In this document: positions 5,720 to 29,180 of the stretch, one piece after another
Layout: each line of letters begins with the position of its first letter
Position numbering within the stretch: the stretch's first letter is position 1
IMG/VR virus record: IMGVR_UViG_3300017724_001256
Location: 1 to 31,648 of that record
Source: a virus
Strand: one strand, 5' to 3'
Length of the DNA: 31,648 bases
The notes under the pieces: generated by a model
Seen by the model: only the letters and a program-made list of their open reading frames with translations
Database searches by the model: none
Told to the model about the DNA's origin: nothing
Program-made: the position numbers and the translations under genes

Positions 5720-6132
5720 TAACTAATCTCCGACCTACCGTCACCTAAATCTTTACTTTGAACAACTCTCATATCTGCACCAGTGATAGGATCAGTGTCT
5801 TTTCTATTATGTGGGTCTGCTTGTTCTTGTTCCCATGTTTCTAACACTACATTACGGCATACTGTTTTAAACCAACGATCAACAATTTCTTCATCTTTAT
5901 CATCATCACTATCTTTGTATCCTTGCTTGATAAGATTTAACAGAAACTTATCATTCCAATCAAGTTCAAAAGCACCATTGTTAATATCTTCTGGGTCAAC
6001 ATTGACTTCTAGTATATCAACCCAAGGTTCTCCAGCCCTAGTTGCCTTTTCTTTTTCAGAAAGTTTAGGTGCCGTTTTTTTCTTAGGGGCAGGTTTCTTC
6101 TTGCCAAACATACTTTTTATTTTATCAAACAT
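5719..6132 (-). CDS. Conserved phage protein of unknown function
   Basis: About 137 residues: a lysine-rich N-terminal stretch (FGKKKPAPKKK) and then an acidic domain with GEPWVDILEVNVDPEDI, FELDWNDKFLL and EEIVDRWFKTVCRNV. I recall similar proteins in T4-like cyanophages, without known function. The ATG at 6132 is chosen over a GTG at 6144 because GAGGA lies seven bases before it and it overlaps the upstream stop. No membrane segment or catalytic motif is seen. Confidence 0.7.
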   Translation of the reverse strand: MFDKIKSMFGKKKPAPKKKTAPKLSEKEKATRAGEPWVDILEVNVDPEDINNGAFELDWNDKFLLNLIKQGYKDSDDDKDEEIVDRWFKTVCRNVVLETWEQEQADPHNRKDTDPITGADMRVVQSKDLGDGRSEIS

Positions 6133-6718
6133 ATAGTTCCTCACTGTCTATGTATTTAGAGACATTATCTTTGCCCGATATATTTTTCATAAATCCTGGA
6201 GTCTCTCTCGCAGTCCATTTAGCAAAGGCTTTTTTGTATACTCTGTAGTAATTTTGATAGGCGTCAATAGCATCATGTGTTTTGACATCATCTGGCATGG
6301 CTTGGGGAGGATCAACAAAGTCTTCACTTGCTATATTATTGGGTAAATGCTGTAAGATATCCTTGAGTTTTTCTTCTGTTAAGTGTGTTTTGCCATACCT
6401 ATGAGTATACTCATTGCATAACGCAACGAACATATCATACACAAATTGATAGTGTGAATCACTAGATCGAATCCAAATATTTGAAGGATGATTGATGTGT
6501 GATGCCTTGTAGAGAACATTCTCCATATGTTGATCGGATAAACGCCAACGTTTAATACGTCTATTATTTGCAGTTCTATCGACATATTCTTCACCATCTA
6601 ATACTCTGTGAGCAGTGGACATCAATTGGGCATACTCAATAATCATTTTGACTACATGTTTGTCACAATGCAGTTCTGCTGATTTAACTGGATCAGTATC
6701 TAAATAAAATATGTTCAT
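6125..6718 (-). CDS. Conserved phage protein of unknown function
   Basis: 197 residues, soluble, mostly helical. The N-terminus carries a His/Cys/Asp-rich block (LHCDKHVVKMIIEYAQLMSTAHR), then NHPSNIWIRSS and a C-terminal helix with YQNYYRVYKKAFAKW. The block could bind metal, but no known active site is evident. Similar proteins are widespread in marine T4-like phages as unannotated genes. A weak sigma70-like promoter for it may lie inside the divergent gene at 6814-6842. The RBS is poor (AGAAAG). Confidence 0.7.
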   Translation of the reverse strand: MNIFYLDTDPVKSAELHCDKHVVKMIIEYAQLMSTAHRVLDGEEYVDRTANNRRIKRWRLSDQHMENVLYKASHINHPSNIWIRSSDSHYQFVYDMFVALCNEYTHRYGKTHLTEEKLKDILQHLPNNIASEDFVDPPQAMPDDVKTHDAIDAYQNYYRVYKKAFAKWTARETPGFMKNISGKDNVSKYIDSEELYV

Positions 6719-8453: not shown

Positions 8454-9509
8454 ATGAGTGGACCTATTCATTTCACTCCGGGAAATCAACAACCTAGAGT
8501 AAGCAAAGAAGAATGGATTGAACTACAACAGCAATGTTCATTGCTTACTGATGTTTGTAGTGAAATGGCTAGACGTTGGCGACTAGCAGGAGAACCTCTC
8601 AATAAAACATACCCCCATTGGCCACAAACAGGCACCCCAGATCCATATGGTGGTTCTTTTTCATGGACAGCAGAAAATCTATGTAAAAGTGATATCTTAA
8701 CAGAGAATCCACTAAAGTTTGAAGACTACATTTTTCCTAATGGTTCGGCTGAAACATTGATATGGACTTCTTATAGATATGGAGTAGGACTCGATAATGT
8801 TCATGTGGAGCCTGCAACATTTATTACTAAGGTGAGAGGAAAACCACACAAAGCATACATTGCATTTAGGGGAACTCAGACTGATGCAAACGGCGGAATC
8901 GACTTACAATATGCACAAGTACCTAATCCAATGGATGTACTAGGTGGTACTGTAATGAAAGGTTTTGAAAAATACTTTGTAGGGTGTGGAATTAAAGCAG
9001 ACGGCACAAGACCCGCAGATACTAGTAGTATAACAGTTCCAGGAAAAACATTATATCAATCGTTAAAAGAAATATCATACAAACATGGTGGACCTGTAAA
9101 AGAATTAATCATAACTGGACATAGCATGGGTTCGACTACAGCACAATTAACAGGTGCGTTAGCATGTAAAGAAGGTTGGTTTGAAAAAGTTATAGTATCT
9201 TGTAGTGCTAGTCCAAGATTTGGCACTGCTGGATTTAAGACTTGGTATGATCAGTTAAGAAGTGAAAAACCTCATCACATGCTTAATGATTATACATGGA
9301 GATTTACAAACAGAAATGATTTTGTTCCTAAAGTGCCAGGAGCACCTTATACTGAATTAGGTACTGAAGTTTGGTTTGAAGAAAAGAATGGTGCTGAACA
9401 TAACCCTTGTTGCACCTACTCATATGCAATTAATAATCCTAATCAGACACACAATCCAGATATCAATGATTGTGAATTCCCAACTCCTGCTATACCACCT
9501 AAACCTTAG
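8454..9509 (+). CDS. Class 3 lipase-like alpha/beta hydrolase
   Basis: 351 residues. The nucleophile elbow GHSMG (Ser about 224) follows a hydrophobic strand (KELIIT), and KAYIAFRGTQT is the typical oxyanion-side strand of class 3 lipases. NRNDFVPKVPG probably carries the acidic residue, and a histidine near the C-terminus (AEHNPCC or QTHNPD) could complete the triad. No signal peptide is present, so it would act in the cytoplasm, in the virion or after lysis. The ATG lies two bases after the stop of the GP88 gene, so both share a late promoter. The 3' end overlaps the convergent denV gene by four bases. The lipid or ester substrate is unknown. Confidence 0.75.
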   Translation: MSGPIHFTPGNQQPRVSKEEWIELQQQCSLLTDVCSEMARRWRLAGEPLNKTYPHWPQTGTPDPYGGSFSWTAENLCKSDILTENPLKFEDYIFPNGSAETLIWTSYRYGVGLDNVHVEPATFITKVRGKPHKAYIAFRGTQTDANGGIDLQYAQVPNPMDVLGGTVMKGFEKYFVGCGIKADGTRPADTSSITVPGKTLYQSLKEISYKHGGPVKELIITGHSMGSTTAQLTGALACKEGWFEKVIVSCSASPRFGTAGFKTWYDQLRSEKPHHMLNDYTWRFTNRNDFVPKVPGAPYTELGTEVWFEEKNGAEHNPCCTYSYAINNPNQTHNPDINDCEFPTPAIPPKP

Positions 9510-9907
9510 TCTTCGTATAGATGAGGCTTTTGACTTATACGAAAGTTGATACGTTCTATAACAATCTCATCATCTTTATCAGATGATTCCCAATCTCCAT
9601 ACCATTGTTTATCGAATCCATCAAATGCTTCTATACGAGTTCTATCTGGAGAATAACCTCGTCTTTCCATTTCGTCTGCAAGTTTGTTAAATCGTTTTAT
9701 GAGAAACTTTAATTTGTTATAAAAGAACGTCACATGTCCTTTGTTTAATGTAAAGTCTTTTGGAATACCATTATGAATCTCTTCTGTTGTTCTTGCTTCT
9801 ATACTTCTACGCAAGGCGGCTGGTATCATTGTTATCTCTCTGAGTTCTGCTACTAGATGCATACGTTTAAGATTTTTCGGATCTAAATCAGAATTGATTC
9901 TAGTCAT
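9506..9907 (-). CDS. denV: Endonuclease V, pyrimidine-dimer DNA glycosylase/AP lyase
   Basis: 133 residues very close to T4 DenV (138). It starts MTRIN, so Thr2 would supply the N-terminal catalytic amine after Met removal, and the catalytic Glu is E24 (HLVAELREI; E23 in T4). The block GHVTFFYNKLKFL is a family signature. The enzyme nicks DNA at UV-induced pyrimidine dimers by base removal and beta-elimination, which fits life in sunlit water. AAGGTG precedes the ATG. It is the last gene of the unit that starts at 10682. Confidence 0.93.
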   Translation of the reverse strand: MTRINSDLDPKNLKRMHLVAELREITMIPAALRRSIEARTTEEIHNGIPKDFTLNKGHVTFFYNKLKFLIKRFNKLADEMERRGYSPDRTRIEAFDGFDKQWYGDWESSDKDDEIVIERINFRISQKPHLYED

Positions 9908-11930: not shown

Positions 11931-12818
11931 TCATTTGCCTATTGCATTACCATAGATGTGAACATGCACTCTGCTTGTATAATAATAACCTCGTCTGATT
12001 GCCTCATCAGCAATACTTGCTTCAGTTTGTACTAAGCCCTCAAACGTTCCACCTACACCCATGATCCATACAGGATAATCACACCCTGCTTCTCTAAACA
12101 GTTTAGTATTTTCTTCTACTTCACGCCAACTTTCATCTGTCCCATTGACTACATACTTTAGTTGACCATGAGGACTCACTTCAGCATATCTTTTTACAAC
12201 ATCAGGTCTAATTGCTTTTGTATGTTTCTCACCTGCAGTTGCCCATAGTTTAGGACTAAGTGACCAATACCATTCTCTGTCAGTCCAATTAGAATACTCA
12301 CGTTGTATCCATTCAGCAAATTCGTCAGTGATAGGTCTAGTACCATTTGTTTCTACAGTTACATTCATTGGCTGATTCTTTCTGCGTTTGAATTCTTCAA
12401 TGACTTCGATCATGCCAGGCTGTGTGTTTTTAATCATAGGCTCGCCACCAGTAAACACCATGTGTGATGATTGTCCTGTAATAGGATGTATGAACTTGCC
12501 ATGAGGGAGAAGTGCTGTCAATTCGTCTACTGCTTCTGTTACAGTCTTATCTGTGATAAGATGTCTATACTTCTTACTCCATGTGTAAGAACTATCACAG
12601 CCTTTGTCAAATACAGGGAGATCAAACACACTATCTATGTTTGTGATATCGATAGTTTCATAAGGGAGTTCATATGTGTCAGGATTAGTCGGATCTTTCT
12701 GACCAAAGCCATTGCATTGTAGATTACACAAAAAGAAACGCATCCACAATGAAGGAATGCCTACGTATTGACCTTCACCTTGTGCTGAAAAAAATGTTTC
12801 ACTATACTTTAGTGTCAT
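11931..12818 (-). CDS. queE: QueE-like 7-carboxy-7-deazaguanine synthase (radical SAM), variant cysteine spacing
   Basis: 295 residues. The start YSETFFSAQGEGQYVGIPSLWMRF and the GGEP motif (124-127) identify QueE, which converts 6-carboxy-5,6,7,8-tetrahydropterin to CDG using SAM and a [4Fe-4S] cluster. The usual cysteine motif is split: C31-x3-C35, then about 38 residues, then C74 (KGCDSSYTW) where a CD(T/S)xY sequence is normally close by. So an insertion seems to sit between the second and third ligands. ETNGT and SPK motifs follow. It is the second gene of the unit behind the 12979 promoter and shares 17 nt with the gene before it. Confidence 0.88.
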   Translation of the reverse strand: MTLKYSETFFSAQGEGQYVGIPSLWMRFFLCNLQCNGFGQKDPTNPDTYELPYETIDITNIDSVFDLPVFDKGCDSSYTWSKKYRHLITDKTVTEAVDELTALLPHGKFIHPITGQSSHMVFTGGEPMIKNTQPGMIEVIEEFKRRKNQPMNVTVETNGTRPITDEFAEWIQREYSNWTDREWYWSLSPKLWATAGEKHTKAIRPDVVKRYAEVSPHGQLKYVVNGTDESWREVEENTKLFREAGCDYPVWIMGVGGTFEGLVQTEASIADEAIRRGYYYTSRVHVHIYGNAIGK

Positions 12819-13019: not shown

Positions 13020-13574
13020 CTAATCTAACCACCAACTTTCCCATGGGAAATCTAACCAGATATCTGGAGTTTCTAGTTTGTTAATTGTTTCATATGTATA
13101 ATCTACTTCCTTAAACGAACTAGATTCATTATTAACAATAGTAGAAAACTTAACTGTTTCATGCCATACAGTTGACCAAGACTGCTCATCTGGAAAACAC
13201 CCTGCTTCCCAATCTTTTTTGAGCCAATTAAGAGTTGCACCTGAATCATTAATATCTTCAACAATAAGAATTTTCTTACGTTTTGATACGTCCCAACGAC
13301 TTTTTGTTATTGCAATCTCGTCTTTAGATAATGCACCAAATGCATCAATTGACATCCAACAATTACTTTCTGGTCCTTGTTGAACATTATCACGTAATGA
13401 TATGTCTAAAGAATGCATTGGAACTTTTAGATAGTGAGAGATCATTACTGCTGGTAACAATCCACCTCTTGTTATTCCTACTACATAATCAGGTCTAAAG
13501 TTGTCTAAGTGCATCTGTCTTAGAATCTCTTGTACTGCGTTTTTGACTTCGCCGATACTAATTCGTTTGTTCAT
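13020..13574 (-). CDS. Purine-type phosphoribosyltransferase
   Basis: 184 residues. YVVGITRGGLLPAVMISHYL matches the conserved beta-strand and loop near the N-terminus of type I phosphoribosyltransferases, and KKILIVEDINDSGATL is the PRPP-binding motif (about 95-110). Similar proteins transfer phosphoribose to hypoxanthine, xanthine or guanine; the substrate here cannot be read from the sequence. AAGGAAGC precedes the ATG. With GMP reductase and GTP cyclohydrolase in the window, a role in purine salvage during infection is likely. It ends just before the queE promoter. Confidence 0.82.
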   Translation of the reverse strand: MNKRISIGEVKNAVQEILRQMHLDNFRPDYVVGITRGGLLPAVMISHYLKVPMHSLDISLRDNVQQGPESNCWMSIDAFGALSKDEIAITKSRWDVSKRKKILIVEDINDSGATLNWLKKDWEAGCFPDEQSWSTVWHETVKFSTIVNNESSSFKEVDYTYETINKLETPDIWLDFPWESWWLD

Positions 13575-14866: not shown

Positions 14867-14950
14867 CTAAAACCTCGGTCTGTTGTTATTGTTCATTACG
14901 TATATAACTACTAACAATAAAACTGCAAGTAATGTTGTAGTTAAATCCAT
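14867..14950 (-). CDS. Tiny membrane peptide, 27 aa
   Basis: 27 residues, nearly all one hydrophobic segment (LTTTLLAVLLLVVIYVM) followed by a polar tail (NNNNRPRF). Its ATG overlaps the queD stop (TAATG), which argues for coupled translation. The small size makes the call uncertain. Confidence 0.45.
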   Translation of the reverse strand: MDLTTTLLAVLLLVVIYVMNNNNRPRF

Positions 14951-15480
14951 TATGCTCTCTCATATATTGCTGAGTTAGCATCGTGTTCAAATACTTCTAC
15001 ACTCTTAACTCTTACTGTAGGGTTAAGTGCTTTCTTTTGAAACTTTGATCGTTCAATGATGATAGTCATTTGCTTAAATACTTCTTCTGCAAACTTCTCT
15101 GAGCCTACGTTGTCAAACACTTTAACTTTTGCTAGTCCACGTTTCTCTAATGCTCTGAACTGTCCTATCTCAGGATCATCTTTTGATACAACAATCGTGT
15201 GATCAAAGTGATCTTCTAACCAGTCTTTGAGTTCTTTCAAACCACCGAAGTCCATAACCCAGTTACGTTCATCAAGTGAATCACACTCAAACACTAGTTT
15301 GAATCCTAGTGAATAACCATGCAACAAAGAACAATGCGAATGCTTTGCACGCCATTGTCTAAAACAACATGAGAAACCTCTATCGTTTCCATATGTTTTA
15401 GTAGACAAATATTTGCCTTTACCGAAATCTATCTCTGGTATCTTATTCACTTTTTTCTTTCCCCAATTAAATATACTCAT
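14950..15480 (-). CDS. queD: QueD-like 6-carboxytetrahydropterin synthase
   Basis: 176 residues of the PTPS/QueD fold. It converts dihydroneopterin triphosphate to 6-carboxy-tetrahydropterin, the second step of 7-deazaguanine synthesis. The active-site region is HSHCSLLHGYSLGF: C50 is the probable catalytic Cys and H54 a zinc ligand, but the usual HGH is HGY (Y56), so one zinc ligand must differ. WVMDFGGLKELKDWLEDHFDHT is the QueD signature downstream. AAGGAG precedes the ATG, and the start overlaps the cytidylyltransferase gene. Confidence 0.85.
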   Translation of the reverse strand: MSIFNWGKKKVNKIPEIDFGKGKYLSTKTYGNDRGFSCCFRQWRAKHSHCSLLHGYSLGFKLVFECDSLDERNWVMDFGGLKELKDWLEDHFDHTIVVSKDDPEIGQFRALEKRGLAKVKVFDNVGSEKFAEEVFKQMTIIIERSKFQKKALNPTVRVKSVEVFEHDANSAIYERA

Positions 15481-16756: not shown

Positions 16757-17437
16757 TTACTGCATCCTGGCGATACTTAAAAATTCTGCCCTTAGCCCAG
16801 GATCTGATTTATCTCTAAAACCACCACCTAATTTACTTGTGATAGTTGAACTTCCTACGTCTTCAACACCCCTAGATTTAACACAGTAATGTTGTGCATC
16901 AATTAAGACTGCAATATTATCTGTGCCTAGAATGTACTGAAGTGCATAATAAATTTGCTCAGTTAGGCGTTCTTGTATCTGAGGTCTTTTAGAAAAGTAT
17001 TCAACGATACGATTGATCTTTGATAAACCTAATACTTTTTCATTAGGAATATATGCAACAGTTGCTAGTCCATCAATAACTACAAAGTGATGTTCGCAAT
17101 TAGATTGAACATTAATGTTTCTTTCTACGACCATTTCATCGTAATGCATTTTGTTATTAACTGTTGTACATTTAGGGAATGCTTCATAATCAAGTCCCCA
17201 AAAGATTTCGTTGACATACATTTTAGCAACACGTTTAGGTGTGTCTGTCAAACTATCATCTGATAGATCAAGTCCTAATGTGTCCATGATGTGATCAAAG
17301 TGACCTTCAATCTTGTCGATTTTTTCTGTACGAGATAGACCATTGTCTATAACAGGCGTTTCTACTCCTGCTTTAACTAAATGATCGTGTACTTGTTTCC
17401 CTAGAACAGGGTCGGTTTTTGTTTTGTTATAAGACAT
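16757..17437 (-). CDS. folE: GTP cyclohydrolase I
   Basis: 226 residues. FolE opens GTP to 7,8-dihydroneopterin triphosphate, the first step towards 7-deazaguanines (and folate). The zinc and catalytic residues are visible: SNCEHHF (C114, H116, H117) and [10 protein letters not shown] (H183, C185). [19 protein letters not shown] and [10 protein letters not shown] are further signatures. GGAAGGAG before the ATG is a strong RBS. It heads a unit with two stacked promoters and a leader hairpin. QueD lies in the same unit. Confidence 0.94.
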
Positions 17438-18544: not shown

Positions 18545-19152
18545 ACTATGTCTATCCAATTAAAAAGTTGGACTAGTCTAGCAGTCTCGTCTGATGTTCC
18601 AAAGTTAGGACCAGGTCCATGAAACTTAGATGCGGGGTATATAATAAGTCTGTTGTAAATAAAGTTTGAAGCAGTATGAATATCCCACTTATCTAAATCA
18701 TTACAGTCTTTTGATTTAACAACTGTCTCTAAGTGCTTAGGACTTAATGCTCGATCTACACCTGTTTCTTTGTGTTTGTAAAACAACGTGCCGGGCATAG
18801 TATATTGATTCTTAGAAAGATATAGAACACCTGCATAATAATTACTATCAGATGTATCAGCATGTAATGCATTATCAAACATGCCACAAACGTTTGTTTC
18901 TTGGCTTAATCTAAAAGAACCATTAGTAAAATGATCCATTTGTCTAATGTTTTTTCCTAAAAGTTTAGATATCTTTGTATTAATCCAACTAGGACTATAT
19001 GCATCTTTACTCATCTTTCCAGACCAAGGAGCATTGCCGTTAGGATAACCTTTAGATACCTTTTCAGGATAATATTTAGATGATAGTGCTAGGTCTCTTA
19101 TAATGTCAGGCTCATCATAAAAATTATCAATGATGATCAGACTTGTGTTCAT
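18541..19152 (-). CDS. DUF6445-like, 2OG-Fe(II) oxygenase-type protein
   Basis: 203 residues. H97 and D99 (ALHADTS) with H178 (KFHGPGPNFG) and R192 (TARLVQLFNW) give the HxD...H...R layout of 2OG oxygenases. YAGVLYLSKNQ followed by GTLFYKHKETG is typical of the DUF6445 proteins found in phages and proteobacteria. Whether it is an active oxygenase is inference from the residues. It is coupled to both neighbours (TAATG at the start, ATGA at the stop). Confidence 0.7.
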   Translation of the reverse strand: MNTSLIIIDNFYDEPDIIRDLALSSKYYPEKVSKGYPNGNAPWSGKMSKDAYSPSWINTKISKLLGKNIRQMDHFTNGSFRLSQETNVCGMFDNALHADTSDSNYYAGVLYLSKNQYTMPGTLFYKHKETGVDRALSPKHLETVVKSKDCNDLDKWDIHTASNFIYNRLIIYPASKFHGPGPNFGTSDETARLVQLFNWIDIV

Positions 19153-20177
19153 TATTTGTTCTCAAATACTTTGTTATATTGATTATTTACTCTAACAAAA
19201 GTAGTACATTTACTCAAGTCTTTTAGTTTACGTGCTCCTGCGTAAGTACAGGCGCTTCTAATGCCCCCTAAGATGTCTTGGACAGTATCTTTAATCGCAC
19301 CTTTATATGGAATCTTTACAGTTCTACCTTCAGAACTTCTATATTCTTTAAGTCCTCCAAAGTGTTTAGTATTAGCAGTATCACTACTCATGCCATAGAA
19401 CTGAACGTTACCATCAACAACTTCTCCTCCACCTTCATCATGTCCTGCCATCATGCCACCAAGCATAATAAAGTCTGCTCCAGCACCAAATGCTTTTGCT
19501 ACATCTCCAGCACTTGAACAACCCCCGTCAGCAATGATGTGTCCACCAAGACCGTGAGCGGCATCGGCACATTCAATGATCGCCGAGAGTTGAGGATATC
19601 CAACGCCAGTCTTAATGCGAGTAGTACAAACACTACCAGGCCCAATACCCACTTTAACGATATCTGCTCCACTTAATATTAACTCCTCTGTCATTTCACC
19701 TGTCACTACATTACCTGCAATGATGATAAGTTCTTCGTATTTGTTTCTTATTTGTTCTACGATTGTAGCAAATCTTTCTGAGTACCCGTTAGCAACATCA
19801 ATACAGAGATACTTGACAGGACATGCTCCCATTACACGATCAAGTTTTTCTAAATCTTGTTCAGCAATACCAATAGACATTGCCACATGTTCTTGTCTTT
19901 TAGAGCCATTACTAAAGTATTCTAGTAAATCAGATGCAGAATATGTTTTAACTAAGCATGTAAACAATCCTTGTTTTAAAAGTGCATCAGCCATTTTAAA
20001 TGTACCAACACCATCCATGTTAGATGCCATGATAGGCACTCCACCATATCCTGCTTCACTGTTTCTAAATCTATAATTACGAAATAAATCTACTTCTTTG
20101 CGTGATCCTAATGTTGATCTTTTGGGTCTAATAAGTACGTCTGAGAAATCTAATTTAACTTCAGATTCTATTCTCAT
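19152..20177 (-). CDS. guaC: GMP reductase (IMPDH/GMPR family)
   Basis: 341 residues from ATG 20177, which has AAGAGG upstream and overlaps the glycosyltransferase stop; a longer start at 20204 is unlikely. [12 protein letters not shown] at the N-terminus and [20 protein letters not shown] with catalytic C184 identify the family. No CBS domains are present, and the length fits GMP reductase rather than IMP dehydrogenase. The reaction is GMP plus NADPH to IMP plus NH3. In an AT-rich phage this could move guanine nucleotides to the adenine side, or lower free GMP. Confidence 0.9.
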
Positions 20178-21166
20178 TAATTGTTTGCCTCTTGTGAAAA
20201 CCAAATATTAAAGACATCATTAGGCTCTGCTACTACCTGTGATATCACCATGTCTGATATTAATGCTTCAATTACCATATCTACACTTTCATCAAATCTA
20301 TCGAAAAGTCTTGTGTTTGGATATAATTCAGGATATACTAATCTATTAGGCAATACAGGTTTGCAACCTAGATAGACTGCTTCTGCAACACCAAAGCCAA
20401 AGTTTTCTTGTAAAGCATAACTTACGATTGCTTTGCTTTTGCCAAGTAATGAGTAGTATTCTCCTTTAGAAAGATTTTCTTCTTGTGTTTTAACAAATCT
20501 AGCATTGAGATTGCCATTAGTTTTTTCATTGACTTGTTTTTCTAGTTCATCAAATAACCAAGGTTGCTTTTCGTCACATAGTCTACCATTAAAGATAACT
20601 ATGTTTTCTTTAGTTTGTCCTTTATGATAATCTAATCCTGAATAGTCTACAGGCAATCCTGATACTACTAACTTATTAGGATCAACTATTCTCTTTCTGA
20701 TGATATCTTCTTTGATAAAATTACTAGCACAATAGATAGTGTCACTTATATCAAAGATAATGTCTTCAAAGTTCTTAGCCCAACGCTCCATGTCTCTTAC
20801 AAAATCAGTATCAGTAAAACTACCAGCATGAATGATGCCTGTAATCTTTACATCTTTTTTTGTAAAATATTTCATGTACGCAATACTTTCAATACCAGGA
20901 AACCATATGTCACTAAAGAATATAGTATCACCATCATTGATTTTACCAGACTCAAACATCGCAGAGATTTCTGCTATTTGCATTGCTTTGAACTTACTAG
21001 TAAATGCCGCATTCAAAAACTGTCCCTCAGGAAGAGGAGGAGTCTCTGTAGTAGGCATTACTTTGACATACTCGATGTCTCGTGTATTTAAATATGCTTC
21101 GATGTCACGGTCCATATGAACTGTGTATCGTCCTTCAATGTGTTCTAAGGGTACATAAATTAACAT
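20177..21166 (-). CDS. GT-B glycosyltransferase, GT4-like
   Basis: 329 residues in two Rossmann-like halves. The donor-binding end has the E-x7-E motif (E254-E262, ENFGFGVAE) followed by [21 protein letters not shown]. This last stretch resembles the C-terminal signature of queuosine mannosyltransferase (QTMAN/GTDC1) from memory; the N-terminal halves do not look alike. The acceptor is unknown. It lies between a cytidylyltransferase-cupin fusion and GMP reductase, within a few kb of DpdA and FolE. Start ATG 21166 has an AGAGA RBS. Confidence 0.75.
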
Positions 21167-23326: not shown

Positions 23327-23355
23327 ATAATACTTGATTTTGTTAGTAAAGTCAA
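23327..23355 (-). promoter_or_regulatory. Sigma70-type promoter for the 23321-17519 unit
   Basis: TTGACT (23350-23355), 17 bp, TATTAT (23327-23332) on the minus strand. CTTGA and TCAAG around the spacer form a wide dyad. The predicted start is at or one base from the ATG at 23321. Confidence 0.75.
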
Positions 23356-24104
23356 GCATTAATTTGCCCAGATTCATAATAGTCATTCATTCTTTTAATA
23401 GTTTGCTTTTCCCAAATTTCATGTTGAGGATTTCTTACATCTGCCCAACTAGGATCAATTCGATAATATTCTTGCGTTTCCCATAGTTCAATCAACTTCG
23501 CATCTTGTTCAAAATCATCTAGTATAAAATTGTTCTTCTTCTTCCAATTATTTAGATGACCTAAGTCATGCTTGTTATTTTTACTCCAGACTCCACTTAC
23601 AATATCTTCAAACTCAACATTTGTCACCCTCTCATCTTCACTTGGTAACCATGAAGGATCATACTTGATAATATTGATCATATCCTTTACTGTATCTAAT
23701 GCGTGATCTTGTATCATTTTCTGACGATTAACCTCTAACCAGTAATGTCTTAAAAATCGTAACCATCTACTTTTCATTGTAGTGACTGTTACATGAATGA
23801 CTTCTTCAAAGTCCTCTATATTAGGAATAATCGAAACTGGTTGATGATGTGCAAACCAATTTCCCTGTGTCCATTCTTTGCTTATTAAGTTAGTTGTTAA
23901 ATCTAGCCATTGCTTTTCATGTATTGGCAAGATAAGATAAGGGACTTCTTCATTGTTTCCGTTCCATCCATTGGTGAGAGGTGATTTAAGGACATGATTG
24001 AATCTAGTTTGTACTATTGATGCTGTAAATGGACTTCTTCTCTCGTTCAGTAAATCGCACATGAGTCCGCCCGCACAATAAGAGGCGACACATATTATTT
24101 TCAT
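23352..24104 (-). CDS. Unknown protein translationally coupled to the DpdA-like enzyme
   Basis: 250 residues starting MKIICVASYCAGGLMCDLLN, a beta strand and glycine-rich loop that recalls the nucleotide-binding start of sulfotransferase or kinase folds without matching a Walker A motif. VTVTTMKSRWLRFLRHYW in the middle could be a second substrate-binding segment. The rest is Trp-rich and acidic. Its ATG overlaps the stop of the DpdA-like gene (ATGA). It could modify the base that DpdA inserts, or the DNA; this is speculation. No family assigned. Confidence 0.55.
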   Translation of the reverse strand: MKIICVASYCAGGLMCDLLNERRSPFTASIVQTRFNHVLKSPLTNGWNGNNEEVPYLILPIHEKQWLDLTTNLISKEWTQGNWFAHHQPVSIIPNIEDFEEVIHVTVTTMKSRWLRFLRHYWLEVNRQKMIQDHALDTVKDMINIIKYDPSWLPSEDERVTNVEFEDIVSGVWSKNNKHDLGHLNNWKKKNNFILDDFEQDAKLIELWETQEYYRIDPSWADVRNPQHEIWEKQTIKRMNDYYESGQINA

Positions 24105-25642
24105 TCATCTATAGCCTGCATTAGTTCATCACTATCTTCTAATTCTTCATCTGTATTTACTGCAGGTTCTTCTGCTACTGAAAATAATTCATCAAACATT
24201 GTGTTAGCATTAACGGCTCTCTTCCCTGAGTAGCCTGAACTCCCTGCTTTGATTTGCATCCAAAACTTACTGTGTTGATCAATCAAATCTAAACTTTTTT
24301 GTTTATCTTGTAGACTAAATATTTCATCAACTAGGTCACTGAAAGTAACACGTTCAAATGTTTCGTTCATCAACATTGCAGGTATAACACCTGATTCATA
24401 TTTTCTGTTTGCTTCTTGCACAGAAAACATATGTTGATAAACATTATGTGCTTTAAGAAGAGTATAACTCAACGTGTCCCAACTAGTCTTTGTTTCTTTA
24501 CCATGTTGACCTAAGAAGCCATGTCCTCTATAACACAAGTCTTTTAATACTAGTGCTTTTGTAATAGGGGAGTCAGTAAACTTCTCATGTATACCGTCTT
24601 GCAAGACTGCATCAATATAAGGACGTGAATCATCTGCATAGTCTTTGTTCTCAGCAGTCTTCTCCATAGAGTAAGTCCATTTAGTATTATGCTCAAATGT
24701 TGAGTTGTTATATGCTAGTCCTTTAGCCGCCCCAAAGAAAGGAGATGCACAATCGAATGTAATCATAAAGTTCGGATTGTGATACTTTCTTACTGCTTTT
24801 TGAATGTCAGTAAACAATACTGCATACTCTAAGATAGATGTACCAAGACAATGAAGTAAATCATGTTTACCTTCTCCTAATAGTCCATCATGGATAAGGA
24901 AGACGATTCTTCTTAGCATCAAATGAATATCAATTTTGTTCTGACCACCGAATGCCCAACCATTGAAATGATTATCTGGGTAAACAGCAGGGTCAGCATA
25001 CATTTTGAATTCTTCATACCATTCATCTGATTGTTTATGAGTTTGACCTTGAAGTACATTTAAGAACTTACAAGCACCACTTCGATGATGAATGAAGTAA
25101 TCGTTATTAATATGCGTAGCAATTTTACACTCTTCAATAGTTGTGATGCCATGCTTATCAACTAAGTCTGTCTTCATCAATATCATTGAAGGAATATCTA
25201 AACACATACCATAATCCATGTATTCGTCCATCCAAGACAAAACTTTCTTACGTTGTTTCATTGCTTTAGGGCAATTAGGATCCTTCCAGTCGGCGGGCCA
25301 CTGACCTTTCATAATTTGAAAACCACCAGAATCTCCTAACATGAAAGTTCCTTCTTCACGTTCTCTGATGATAGACTCATTAGGATTGTCGCTAGTGATG
25401 TCTAGGTCTGCGTGGCCCGCAGAGTATAACCCCCATTTGTAGTTATACAGTCCTTGTTTAGAGTTTAAAAAGTTTAAACATTCTACGTCTCCATTTAGTC
25501 CTGCAGGAATACGTTCTTCAGGGAAATAATCCATTCCTTTACGTTGTCTACCTAATCCAGCGATAAAGAAACTGCTAACAGCAGGCAAGAATAACGCCCA
25601 ATCGTCTTTGTGTTCGGCTGAAAGATTTACTTGCTCTGCCAT
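24101..25642 (-). CDS. dpdA: DpdA-like 7-deazaguanine transglycosylase (TGT family)
   Basis: 513 residues of the tRNA-guanine transglycosylase superfamily. DSGGFQ (D104, general acid/base position), LQG (198-200), GWAFGG (228-233), HCLGTS (264-269) and TFDCAS (D297, nucleophile position) follow the TGT order. The canonical CxCxxC zinc site is not visible; only a C-terminal LKAHNVYQHM resembles the HN region. DpdA enzymes in phages and bacterial islands exchange guanine in DNA for 7-deazaguanines. Proximity to the sliding clamp and polymerase supports DNA rather than tRNA as target. It is eight bases from the clamp gene and shares its promoter. Confidence 0.82.
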   Translation of the reverse strand: MAEQVNLSAEHKDDWALFLPAVSSFFIAGLGRQRKGMDYFPEERIPAGLNGDVECLNFLNSKQGLYNYKWGLYSAGHADLDITSDNPNESIIREREEGTFMLGDSGGFQIMKGQWPADWKDPNCPKAMKQRKKVLSWMDEYMDYGMCLDIPSMILMKTDLVDKHGITTIEECKIATHINNDYFIHHRSGACKFLNVLQGQTHKQSDEWYEEFKMYADPAVYPDNHFNGWAFGGQNKIDIHLMLRRIVFLIHDGLLGEGKHDLLHCLGTSILEYAVLFTDIQKAVRKYHNPNFMITFDCASPFFGAAKGLAYNNSTFEHNTKWTYSMEKTAENKDYADDSRPYIDAVLQDGIHEKFTDSPITKALVLKDLCYRGHGFLGQHGKETKTSWDTLSYTLLKAHNVYQHMFSVQEANRKYESGVIPAMLMNETFERVTFSDLVDEIFSLQDKQKSLDLIDQHSKFWMQIKAGSSGYSGKRAVNANTMFDELFSVAEEPAVNTDEELEDSDELMQAIDE

Positions 25643-25647
25643 AATTT

Positions 25648-26379
25648 TTACTTCGCTTGTGCTGGTAATAGATATTCGTAAACAGTATAACCACTGTCTA
25701 CTGTGATTTGTGCCGCCCCTTGATCAGAGATACGCACAGTCTTGTCACCTGGCAGATCCATGATTGACAAGAATACTTTAACAGGCCATTGCCATGTTCT
25801 ACTCAACGTTCCAGTTACAGAAGGTTGAAAGACAAAGTTGCCTGAGTGAGTTGACGGCTCACCAAAGAAGATTTTAAGATCGCCACCATCTGTCTTAGTT
25901 GTAAAGTTTAACTCTTCTGAGTTTGCTTGTGCTTGTTTCTTCAGACGTAAAATACCTGCGATTGTAGGTTCAAATTCAACGTCCCATTGAGCACCTTTAA
26001 ACGTGACATTTCTTACTTTTTCTTCAATAAGTGCTTTTGACATCAAACGATAGTCATTAATAAAGTCATTGTTCTTAGTAGCAAAGTGAATTGCTTGTGG
26101 CACATCAACGCCATCAACTTGCTTATGAGTCATACTAATAGTAGAATTCTCATCATAATCATCAAAACTTAGAATCGTTTTGAGTTTGCCTAGATTAGGC
26201 ATACCGAATGTACCGATGAAATCAGCAACAGGCGTCTTTGTTTTACCACTTACAATAACAGACTTATCATCTGCAATCGCATTGACCTCTGTCTCTGTAG
26301 CAGTACCATCAATCTTAACTAGATCAATGATGCCTAAGCCGAATGTATATTCGATCAAATCTTGTAAATTATCTTTCAT
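25648..26379 (-). CDS. 45: Sliding clamp (T4 gp45-like)
   Basis: 243 residues. VADFIGTFGMPNLGKLKTILSFDDYD is the signature of T4-type gp45 in marine phages. The protein would form a trimeric ring that holds the polymerase on DNA and, in T4, also activates late transcription. AGAGGAAAATAA before the ATG is a strong RBS. It is transcribed from the promoter at 26420-26448 with the DpdA-like gene. Clamp loader genes and the late sigma (gp55) are not in the window. Confidence 0.88.
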   Translation of the reverse strand: MKDNLQDLIEYTFGLGIIDLVKIDGTATETEVNAIADDKSVIVSGKTKTPVADFIGTFGMPNLGKLKTILSFDDYDENSTISMTHKQVDGVDVPQAIHFATKNNDFINDYRLMSKALIEEKVRNVTFKGAQWDVEFEPTIAGILRLKKQAQANSEELNFTTKTDGGDLKIFFGEPSTHSGNFVFQPSVTGTLSRTWQWPVKVFLSIMDLPGDKTVRISDQGAAQITVDSGYTVYEYLLPAQAK

Positions 26380-26419
26380 TTATTTTCCTCTTTAAAGTAT
26401 TTAGGTAGATATAGTGTGT

Positions 26420-26448
26420 ATTATATCTGGTTTTATTACACATTGCAA
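26420..26448 (-). promoter_or_regulatory. Sigma70-type promoter for the clamp-dpdA unit
   Basis: TTGCAA (26443-26448), 17 bp, TATAAT (26420-26425) on the minus strand. Upstream, GTCCAAAA and GGGTAAAC repeat a sequence seen ahead of the promoter at 29476. Confidence 0.72.
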
Positions 26449-26465
26449 TTGTTTTGGACAACTGT

Positions 26466-29180
26466 TTACCCGAAACTAAACAATTCATCAAATGTTGAAT
26501 TAGTGTCTGTGTTTGCTCTTAAATCCCATTTAAGAACTCCGAGTAAGTTGCTGATCTTTTCATCTACGAGTGTAGACTCCATTAAATTATCATCGAACGG
26601 CAGTTCTTTGAACCATTGAGGCAATCTAAGTTGATCAGTAGGATATGCAATACTTGTATATCCAAGAGCATTAGTCTTTAGTTTACATACTACGACTTTA
26701 AAGCCATCCATGATCTCCATTGAGTAGTTGTCACCATGAACACGTTTGAGTGTGTTCCAATTCATTGCCGCCCTCACGTGACCAGGCATGTTTGCTCGAC
26801 CAGTTTTAGACTTTTTCTCTAACTGAGTGTAATGAGTTAACTTGTTTACACCCTTAGGAGAACCTTTTGTCCAAGAATCTTTGTCACCTAAGTGAAGTTT
26901 AAACTCTTTGATCTTTTCGATAATGTCCTCACGGCTTTTACCACCAAGAGCCATTTCTAACACTTCCATCAAAAAGTCTTGTATATACTTAGGAGTATCT
27001 GCTCGTTTGAGATCGAGTCCCATTGCTTTAACTTTCATTGCACCATTAGCATCAGTACGTTTGCCTTCATTGTCATAAATATTAATTGCATATCTTTTCT
27101 TAGTGATGAACAATCCTCTGTCCCCACAAACTTCTCTACCGCCTTTGATTATCTCACCTTTTTCACGCGGACAATGAAATGCTGTTTCCATAAAACCAGG
27201 GAAAGATATATTACATTGATCAGACATACTTTCATACAAATCAATAAACGTTTGCTTCTTGTCTTCTAGTGTCATGTCTGCGGGAAGTTCATCTTTCAAC
27301 ATAGGCCATGCAGAGAAATAACATGAGTCAGTATCACCATAGACCATCGAATCGCCTGTATGATCATATACCCCAGTCATTATCTCATTGATATATGCTG
27401 ACATATGTTTTGTAACACTACGACCAGTCAATGTTACAGACTGTCCTATACGTTTATCATAGAAACGACAATGCTCATTCAAAAGTGCGCCATATGCTGA
27501 GTTTAGTAGAATCTTACGAACTAACTGTCTCTTGTCCCAATACTCAATGTCTTCTTTTGTTTTAGCCTCTCTGAGTTTGCCCTGCATAATCTTACGATCA
27601 GAATACCATTTAGACAACAGTCCGGGAATCACACCCTCAACATCTGATCTAAAGATTGTGCCATTAGCACTAAGAATGAAAGGATTATTTGAATCATAAA
27701 TCCACTTCCATACTTCAGCCGCACTCTTCTCTTCTGAACTCCCATCTTCAAAATCAACTGTTAGCATTGTACCACGTTCCTGATTCTGAATTGCAGTATA
27801 CTCAAGTGAGCCAAATAGTCCTTCCCATAAGATAGGACCTTCTACTGATGCATCACCTTTCTTGTAACGAGATTTCTTCTTAGCAAGTTCTAGTCCTTTT
27901 TCTTGCATATACTGCTCAGTCAATGTATGTTTTACTTGACCAACAATTGTTTCAGGCGCCATATTCAATGCTCGTATCACTGAAGGATACAGAGAGTTGA
28001 TATCGACAGAACCTATCCAGTCATGCAACCCTTTCTTCGGAGTCATAACATAAGCACCTGCCGCTGTGCCTTCACTAACTGTATTGATGTTTTGTCTAAT
28101 CTTGTTAGGCACAACAACACCACGTTCATGTGCTTCGTTCATAATAGCCATTTCAATCATAGCCACTGAACCCATGACAGTCGGAAGTAATACAGTATTC
28201 TCATGCGCCATCTGATTAGCAAGTTCAATAAACTGCAATTTATCATCTAGTTTTTTGAGTAGTAAAGTGTCCTGTCTGTTGTATTCGATAAACGTTTTGA
28301 AGTCTTTGTTATACAACTGATCGAGTGATCCTTCATACTCAGTCTTCTTTTCACCGACTTCCATTTCACCAATTGCATCTAGTTTATAACTATGACGAGA
28401 TTCATAATTATACTTCTTATAGAGTGCAAGATAATCTAAATGAATACGACCTACTAAGTCAAACGTTTCTTCTTCCTTACCGAACCTTTCATATGTTCTT
28501 TTCTTAGGATATTGACCTAATAGACAGAACTTACGAGTATCGTCTTTAGACATCACACGTGTAACACGATTGACCATATACGGAATATCATATCCTTCTG
28601 AGTTCCAACCTGACAACACATCTGCATCTTCGATCAAAGTAAAGAATACATCAAACAATTCTTTCTCTGTTCTAAACAACATTGTGTCAGGGAAGTCTTT
28701 GATTGCTTCTTGTGCAGTCTCATACGTCATATGAGAAGGCGGAACTGCTAGACAAACTAGTTGATCGAGCCAGTCTAAGTATAAACTGACAGCAGTTACA
28801 GGATTAAAAGGATCACTCGGAGGAGAGAATCCTTTTGCAGGGTCAAAGTCTACCTCGATATCAAAGAAACATGTATGCAGTTTCGGAGCATCGATTTTTA
28901 GATAGTTCTCACTTAGACATCGAAATACTATTGGCACATCACTCTCAAACAAACGTCTATTTGAATGAATTCTTTTCTCTTTCTCAAATTCACTTTGTTT
29001 GCGTGAGGAAAACTTAGTGACAGAAGTGTTATATAAAGAACGATGTTTACCTTTAGAATCTTCGTAATACAATACGTAGTTCGTAGGGTATTCTTTGAAT
29101 TCCCTATTTCCTTCAGGCGTTCTCTCTACAACACAGATTCTATCCGCAGTTTTATCATGGATTGCATCAATATACGACAT
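26466..29180 (-). CDS. 43: Family B DNA polymerase (T4 gp43-like)
   Basis: 904 residues with all expected motifs. In the 3'-5' exonuclease: FFDIEV (D107, E109), GWNSEGYDIPYMVNR, and YNRQDTLLLKK. In the polymerase: DINSLYPSVI (motif A, about 392), KILLNSAYGALLN (motif B, about 555) and VYGDTDSCYF (motif C, about 614), then KKRYAIN. Length equals T4 gp43 (898). The C-terminal end TFDELFSFG resembles a clamp-binding tail; a similar TMFDELFSV sequence occurs near the DpdA-like C-terminus. It is coupled to the DsbA-like gene (TAATG). Confidence 0.96.
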   Translation of the reverse strand: MSYIDAIHDKTADRICVVERTPEGNREFKEYPTNYVLYYEDSKGKHRSLYNTSVTKFSSRKQSEFEKEKRIHSNRRLFESDVPIVFRCLSENYLKIDAPKLHTCFFDIEVDFDPAKGFSPPSDPFNPVTAVSLYLDWLDQLVCLAVPPSHMTYETAQEAIKDFPDTMLFRTEKELFDVFFTLIEDADVLSGWNSEGYDIPYMVNRVTRVMSKDDTRKFCLLGQYPKKRTYERFGKEEETFDLVGRIHLDYLALYKKYNYESRHSYKLDAIGEMEVGEKKTEYEGSLDQLYNKDFKTFIEYNRQDTLLLKKLDDKLQFIELANQMAHENTVLLPTVMGSVAMIEMAIMNEAHERGVVVPNKIRQNINTVSEGTAAGAYVMTPKKGLHDWIGSVDINSLYPSVIRALNMAPETIVGQVKHTLTEQYMQEKGLELAKKKSRYKKGDASVEGPILWEGLFGSLEYTAIQNQERGTMLTVDFEDGSSEEKSAAEVWKWIYDSNNPFILSANGTIFRSDVEGVIPGLLSKWYSDRKIMQGKLREAKTKEDIEYWDKRQLVRKILLNSAYGALLNEHCRFYDKRIGQSVTLTGRSVTKHMSAYINEIMTGVYDHTGDSMVYGDTDSCYFSAWPMLKDELPADMTLEDKKQTFIDLYESMSDQCNISFPGFMETAFHCPREKGEIIKGGREVCGDRGLFITKKRYAINIYDNEGKRTDANGAMKVKAMGLDLKRADTPKYIQDFLMEVLEMALGGKSREDIIEKIKEFKLHLGDKDSWTKGSPKGVNKLTHYTQLEKKSKTGRANMPGHVRAAMNWNTLKRVHGDNYSMEIMDGFKVVVCKLKTNALGYTSIAYPTDQLRLPQWFKELPFDDNLMESTLVDEKISNLLGVLKWDLRANTDTNSTFDELFSFG

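Follow-up and report, generated by a model that had tools for sequence, protein, structure and literature searches.

Clamp-tethered DNA modification is known from eukaryotes, where DNMT1 bound to PCNA and other PIP-box modifiers act on daughter strands. In bacteriophage T4, the C-terminus of the polymerase gp43 binds the sliding clamp gp45, and the tails of gp43 and of the late-transcription factors gp55 and gp33 resemble each other, their clamp motifs being interchangeable modules on divergent linkers; DpdA is not listed among the clamp ligands (PMC2988020). The T4 alpha-glucosyltransferase, a DNA-modifying enzyme, also pulls down gp45 (Sommer 2004; confirmed in PMC13216743). As for DpdA, a role in preQ0 insertion has been shown for the 9g family; DpdA2 of phage nt-1 came to light because of the preQ0 genes around it, and its likeness to TGT was detected by HHpred alone (Hutinet and colleagues, PMC6884629). 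Here we examine a viral DNA of 31,648 nucleotides (IMG/VR record IMGVR_UViG_3300017724_001256, positions 1 to 31,648; hereafter the window), in which a DpdA2-like protein carries near its C-terminus the hexapeptide FDELFS that also lies at the end of the phage polymerase. We consider it likely, at a probability of about 0.82, that this protein acts as a client of the sliding clamp encoded by the same phage, tethered there for base exchange. The features on which the argument turns are:

26466..29180, minus strand: family B DNA polymerase, T4 gp43-like, 904 residues (Pfam DNA_pol_B 9.4e-39, exo1 5.5e-20)
26469..26498, minus strand: C-terminal motif of the polymerase, STFDELFSFG, counterpart of the gp43 clamp-binding tail (by its relatives and the T4 and RB69 tails)
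25648..26379, minus strand: sliding clamp, 243 residues (by the predicted fold of the relative L142 and the position between polymerase and dpdA)
24101..25642, minus strand: DpdA2-like protein of the TGT superfamily, 513 residues (by profile comparison with DpdA2 of T4-like phages and conserved segments)
24167..24202, minus strand: predicted clamp-binding motif of the DpdA-like protein, TMFDELFSVAEE (kept or rebuilt across relatives, in a disordered tail)
24104..24166, minus strand: variable acidic tail after the DpdA motif (cut away in 14 relatives, with 2-4 residues left)

The three genes follow one another on the minus strand as polymerase (29180..26466), clamp (26379..25648) and dpdA-like (25642..24101), and the clamp gene ends 5 nt upstream of the DpdA start, which bears out the direct neighbourhood of the two that the original prediction had noted. 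The first is certainly a family B DNA polymerase, with further matches to PHROG 262 (1.8e-199) and to RB69 gp43 in the PDB (1.9e-61). The clamp protein found no match in a Pfam search, and we modelled its relative L142 with AlphaFold2 (AF2): the clamp part reaches a predicted local distance difference test (pLDDT) score of roughly 90, and its best Foldseek matches in the PDB are all PCNA-type clamps (E 7.8e-11, probability 1.00). On this model, the 243-residue neighbour is predicted to have the PCNA/gp45 fold. The clamp gene also sits between the polymerase and dpdA genes in Pseudomonas phage PA5oct and Vibrio phage 2.275.O.

The polymerase ends in ...NTDTNSTFDELFSFG, with FDELFS at residues 897-902 (window 26475-26492), and the DpdA-like protein contains ...NANTMFDELFSVAEEPAVNTDEELEDSDELMQAIDE, with FDELFS at residues 483-488 (window 24179-24196). 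The hexapeptide had been described as shared by both C-termini; it is indeed present in both proteins, but in DpdA 25 acidic residues follow it, so that the motif lies near the end and not at it, within a tail that AlphaFold predicts to be disordered (pLDDT 30-40 for the final 47 residues). Some 6-mer is common to 4 of the 561 protein pairs in the window, and a shuffled DpdA shares one with the polymerase in 1.6% of cases; a 6-mer common to the last 60 residues of DpdA and the last ten of the polymerase arises in 5 of 200,000 shuffles. Taken alone, the identity in the window is weak evidence and not remarkable by itself. With adjoining genes and a shared 6-mer that is not rare, it could be a functionless accident or a leftover, recombination having placed a copy of the polymerase tail in the adjacent gene. 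Because the identity alone is weak, it is conservation across relatives that decides.

Scans gave more than 300 viral contigs with relatives, from which 122 distinct DpdA tails were compared. At the native site, after an SGKK..N..T segment, 98 of the 122 carry F[DNE]xLF despite changing neighbours, and roughly 12 more have near variants there (for example MLDKLF, MFTALF and YDELF); 14 of the 98 proteins with the strict motif stop 2-4 residues past it. Tail length and motif place vary among relatives, with the motif itself retained, and in relatives 50-80% identical the core motif is kept while its surroundings vary. The original prediction would have been hard to uphold had close DpdA homologues lacked the motif; instead, about 110 of the 122 relatives keep the native site and several others have rebuilt it C-terminally. 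F-D-x-L-F-x-F-G stands at the polymerase end in nearly all of the 122 distinct relatives, and with a scoring matrix built from polymerase tails alone 83% of DpdA tails outscore the 99th percentile of shuffled ones, while 6 of 2,366 other proteins of those loci reach a score of 8 in their last 30 residues. Judged by this conservation, the sharing of FDELFS lies beyond chance.

In seven to nine relatives, mostly with the native site eroded, the motif stands at the extreme C-terminus: MFNELFQLGT in L125, VLNNLFTFG in L297, KFNELFSFN in L309, KFNELFTLE in L292, SFNKLFEVL in L320, STFNSFFE in L146 and NPLFSFGG in L280, with L307, where the native site is still there, and L048, where the motif is weak, as less clear cases. 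On a tree of the DpdA core domain only, with the tail excluded, the relocation label needs nine changes, of which at least six are forced by well supported branches; the motif has thus moved to the C-terminus at least six independent times. Loss in one place and regain elsewhere, with the core unchanged, has the look of selection on a linear motif. An accident or a copied leftover would gain favour if most relatives had lost the motif uncompensated, and the opposite is found, with the core motif outlasting its surroundings and being rebuilt elsewhere when lost. In T4-like phages, moreover, dpdA2 lies away from the polymerase gene and yet has the motif (31 against 24-26 kb in Stenotrophomonas phage Moby; 67 against 20 kb in Synechococcus phage BUCT-ZZ01). 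We therefore regard a functionless origin as highly improbable. Within the window family we make no claim that motif variants covary letter by letter: VGDLF polymerases there go with FDQLF DpdA.

Two other proteins of these loci drew attention. A family of small proteins (140-151 residues; L263:7490-7912, L283:10478-10900 and L065:8802-9257), without a Pfam or PHROG match, ends in FFNSLFTIA, FINSLFTFA or IFNSFFS and may be a third clamp client. A 198-residue DUF1833 protein in L241, with a motif near one end, was not accepted as one.

The DpdA2 proteins of T4-like phages, to which the window protein is related by profile, end much as their own polymerases do: NSLDDLFG and SSLEDLFGW in Moby (DpdA2 first, polymerase second), TTLDELFE and PSLDDLFE in Acidovorax phage ACP17, ASLDSFFD and STLDDFFS in BUCT-ZZ01, and VSLEDLFA and ATLEGLFG in G014. 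DpdA2 ends such as TLEDLFG and SLEDLFA recur in several viral contigs. For comparison, T4 gp43 ends in EKASLDFLFG and RB69 gp43 in KKASLFDMFDF, and T4 gp55 has SLDFLY near its end; as read from the letters, T4-like DpdA2 tails match the T4 gp43 tail almost one for one (NSLDDLFG against ASLDFLFG). A broad version of the C-terminal pattern occurs in 5 of the 230 predicted proteins of Moby (gp43, gp55, DpdA2, the baseplate hub and a small open reading frame) and in 3 of the 207 of ACP17, gp43 and DpdA2 included. In BUCT-ZZ01, a glycosyltransferase-like protein adjoining DpdA2 (L466:8503-9846) ends ...SAGSLEDFFND, a tail of the same kind, and may be another modifying enzyme that binds the clamp, as the T4 alpha-glucosyltransferase does.

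Two of the more distant jumbo phages have motifs matched between polymerase and DpdA. In PA5oct the polymerase ends HFDSLFGW and DpdA has SFNSLFDV; in Vibrio 2.275.O the ends are NNTDLFDW and NNNDLFGW, the first aromatic residue (F) being lost in both. Over whole genomes the broad pattern has few C-terminal copies, of which polymerase and DpdA regularly make up a part. Two observations belong beside these genomes. The gene after dpdA in Vibrio 2.275.O (L153:4621-5733), weakly amidoligase-like, starts MFNELFDFNDRY, with the motif at its N-terminus; and an annotated polymerase C-terminal piece of PA5oct (L152:692-1831) opens like an intein end (...NNILVHN|S), beside an annotated homing endonuclease.

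The bacterial clamp-binding pentapeptide is QxxLF. DpdA of Enterobacteria phage 9g resembles the window protein in that its gene adjoins clamp and polymerase genes and in its C-terminal motif, here (Q)xLF; it differs in its length (317 residues), in showing no detectable profile similarity to the window protein, in the clamp beside it, annotated as beta-type, and so in the flavour of its motif. Across the 9g group dpdA is next to the clamp gene or not far from it, and this clamp is annotated as a beta subunit with weak Pfam support (one sub-threshold match, Skure). An exact LF-COOH end is found in 64 of 77 distinct 9g-type DpdAs, mostly as VQELF or IQELF or with QxxLF (QPGLF, QMELF); L and F are the sole invariant residues of the tail in their alignment (A5), and among 705 distinct open reading frames of 9g-type loci, those that end in LF are DpdA. 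The end resembles QxxLF imperfectly, and this arm of the comparison is less certain. For the polymerases of the 9g group (for example L325:36-2009 and L333-L341), a possible clamp contact is a segment conserved at the N-terminus, M..DxxG[FLM]FW[EQD]D.

It is reasonably probable that these three groups each use a motif suited to their own clamp, F[DN]xLFxF in the DpdA2-like proteins of jumbo phages, SL[DE]xLFG in the DpdA2 of T4-like phages and QxLF in the 9g type. To a similar degree we favour clamp tethering as a common rule for phage DpdA, with insertion generally coupled to DNA on which clamps are freshly loaded. Clamp clients with tail motifs are a known kind of protein; that DpdA should use such a motif, in three groups and in clamp-specific flavours, appears new, and in the literature searched we found no paper that links DpdA to a sliding clamp.

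Several observations weigh against DpdA as a clamp client. DpdA2 of nt-1 and KVP40-like phages and DpdA of mycobacteriophage Typha lack the motif, as does L289 within the window family, in which that of L303 is weak; Sinorhizobium phage Phosso has TFNDLFTF in its polymerase but just ...IVEGLF at the DpdA end, counted as weak. Since the motif is missing or weak in these proteins, clamp binding is not required for all DpdAs. The DpdA2 of pf16 has a degenerate end. Conservation of the motif in DpdAs of T4-like phages, the check that the original prediction had proposed, holds for several (Moby, ACP17, BUCT-ZZ01) and fails for the nt-1/KVP40-like ones, from which the window protein differs in its longer tail with an internal motif. 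Proteins for which clamp binding is improbable can likewise end in a short hydrophobic motif, as does the baseplate hub protein (end LEDFFG), which we did not accept as a clamp client. In T4, the contact between alpha-glucosyltransferase and gp45 is not what determines the glucosylation ratio (PMC13216743). Finally, AF2 models of two natural read-through fusions, polymerase tail with clamp (L142) and clamp with DpdA (L017), have well folded clamp and DpdA cores but leave the DpdA motif and the polymerase positive control alike undocked, with motif pLDDT below 50.

Such uninformative docking leaves some room for the motif to bind a different partner of the polymerase, such as the single-strand binding protein or the helicase, or a site between DpdA subunits. 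Against this, the polymerase tail of T4 and RB69 binds the clamp, as the original prediction had said of T4 (gp43-gp45 binding; PMC2988020), T4-like DpdA2 tails are nearly identical to that of the T4 polymerase, and the window family, PA5oct, Vibrio 2.275.O and the 9g group all have dpdA adjoining the clamp gene or a short way from it; we hold another partner to be improbable. Binding of DpdA to the clamp, as originally proposed, has strong evolutionary support and we judge it very likely, though the AlphaFold models docked no motif, that of the polymerase control included. Like T4 gp43, gp55 and gp33, whose motifs are C-terminal (PMC2988020), the window protein has a short hydrophobic and acidic, polymerase-like motif near its terminus, on a flexible and variable tail, and the motif is conserved or rebuilt. 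For a DNA-modifying enzyme bound to the clamp, T4 alpha-glucosyltransferase is a direct precedent: this phage DNA-hypermodifying enzyme binds the phage clamp and is proposed to act with replication, and the window protein, a putative DNA-modifying enzyme too, is predicted to bind its own. They differ in that the T4 enzyme puts glucose on hydroxymethylcytosine whereas the window enzyme would be a TGT-type base exchanger, and in that the T4 C-terminus, FKEQFDIITK, is without the gp43-type tail motif.

The 513-residue protein itself had no useful match by sequence in Pfam (TGT included), PHROGs, NCBIfam, PADLOC or the PDB. Comparing an alignment of 33 proteins of its family (A1) with one of DpdA2 from T4-like phages (A6) gave a probability of 96.3 and E 1.6e-9 over 196 columns; against the single sequence of nt-1 DpdA2 the match had been merely suggestive (E 0.002) until the DpdA2 family alignment was used, and with 9g-type DpdA no similarity was detectable by profile comparison. 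The conserved segments of A1 are LGDSGGFQ, LD.P, V.QG, FGG, H.LG and FDCASP, with D104-S-G-G, D149, G199, G233, L266-G, D297 and S300 invariant over the 33 proteins, and they stand in register with D65-S-G-G, FDE, QG, HxLG and YDS of DpdA2. We take these to be the TGT-type active-site segments (DSGG, second Asp motif, QG, GG, LG and catalytic FD/YD). In the AlphaFold model of the clamp-DpdA fusion the DpdA core has pLDDT mostly 85-97; all 50 best PDB matches of this fusion in a Foldseek search for the TGT fold went to the fused clamp. As with nt-1 DpdA2 and its relatives (PMC6884629), profile homology goes with 7-deazaguanine pathway genes in the same genome, here for FolE, QueD and QueE:

16757..17437, minus strand: FolE, GTP cyclohydrolase I (NCBIfam 9.6e-96; Pfam 1.2e-58)
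14950..15480, minus strand: QueD/6-pyruvoyl tetrahydropterin synthase (Pfam PTPS 2.9e-17)
11931..12818, minus strand: QueE-like radical SAM protein (PHROG 2076, QueE-like, 2.4e-50)

No QueC was found within the 31.6 kb window fragment. The order in Vibrio 2.275.O is polymerase, clamp, two small genes, DpdA-like, amidoligase-like and an annotated 7-cyano-7-deazaguanine reductase. On the DpdA2 profile match, the TGT-like segments, the FolE, QueD and QueE genes and this gene order, we file the protein as a remote DpdA2-type enzyme with putative base-exchange activity, which probably swaps DNA bases for modified ones.

In the mechanism that we propose, a folded TGT-type domain would be followed by a flexible acidic tail holding F-[DNE]-x-L-F, of the type of the polymerase C-terminus, and this motif would dock into the peptide pocket of the clamp. 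Once docked, the base-exchange enzyme would be tethered to clamps loaded on DNA and would slide along freshly replicated phage DNA, swapping guanines for the 7-deazaguanine supplied by the FolE/QueD/QueE pathway. Tethering would make the enzyme locally more concentrated on phage DNA and would favour new DNA over host DNA, which has few phage clamps; we infer a gain in modification efficiency. Given binding, modification at or just behind the fork, in line with the original prediction that it would follow the fork, is fairly likely. The motif could instead bind the clamp and keep DpdA off the DNA, or couple it to late transcription or repair patches: in T4 the same motif serves gp55 and gp33 in late transcription, apart from the polymerase (PMC2988020), clamps persist on DNA behind the fork after synthesis, and the alpha-glucosyltransferase contact with gp45 is without strong effect on the modification balance (PMC13216743). 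We think such a role unlikely.

If DpdA is indeed a clamp client, the phage would have a way to tell its own DNA from that of the host and to modify it before host nucleases act, and the motif would be a specific answer to how, and when, a base-exchange enzyme quickly finds phage DNA. It would also set TGT/DpdA chemistry, as replication-associated modification, beside T4 alpha-glucosyltransferase and the eukaryotic PCNA-bound modifiers (DNMT1 and its motif being unrelated to window DpdA), and the motif could be used to spot more clamp clients in jumbo phages.

Some further genes of the window deserve mention. A hypoxanthine phosphoribosyltransferase-like gene (13020-13574) and an IMPDH/GMP reductase gene (19152-20204) stand among those of the 7-deazaguanine pathway; the modified base might conceivably take a nucleotide-level route. 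The gene at 20177-21166 looks similar, by eye and at its N-terminus, to a glycosyltransferase-like gene of PA5oct (L152:4617-5678) that lies closely downstream of dpdA, and it is possible that the base carries further decoration. The pyrimidine dimer DNA glycosylase family is matched by two proteins (6125-6718 and 9506-9907), the former falling slightly below its cut-off. A 250-residue gene at 23352-24104, without a family match, shares 4 nt with the end of dpdA; it was found in no more than 21 of the first 149 loci.

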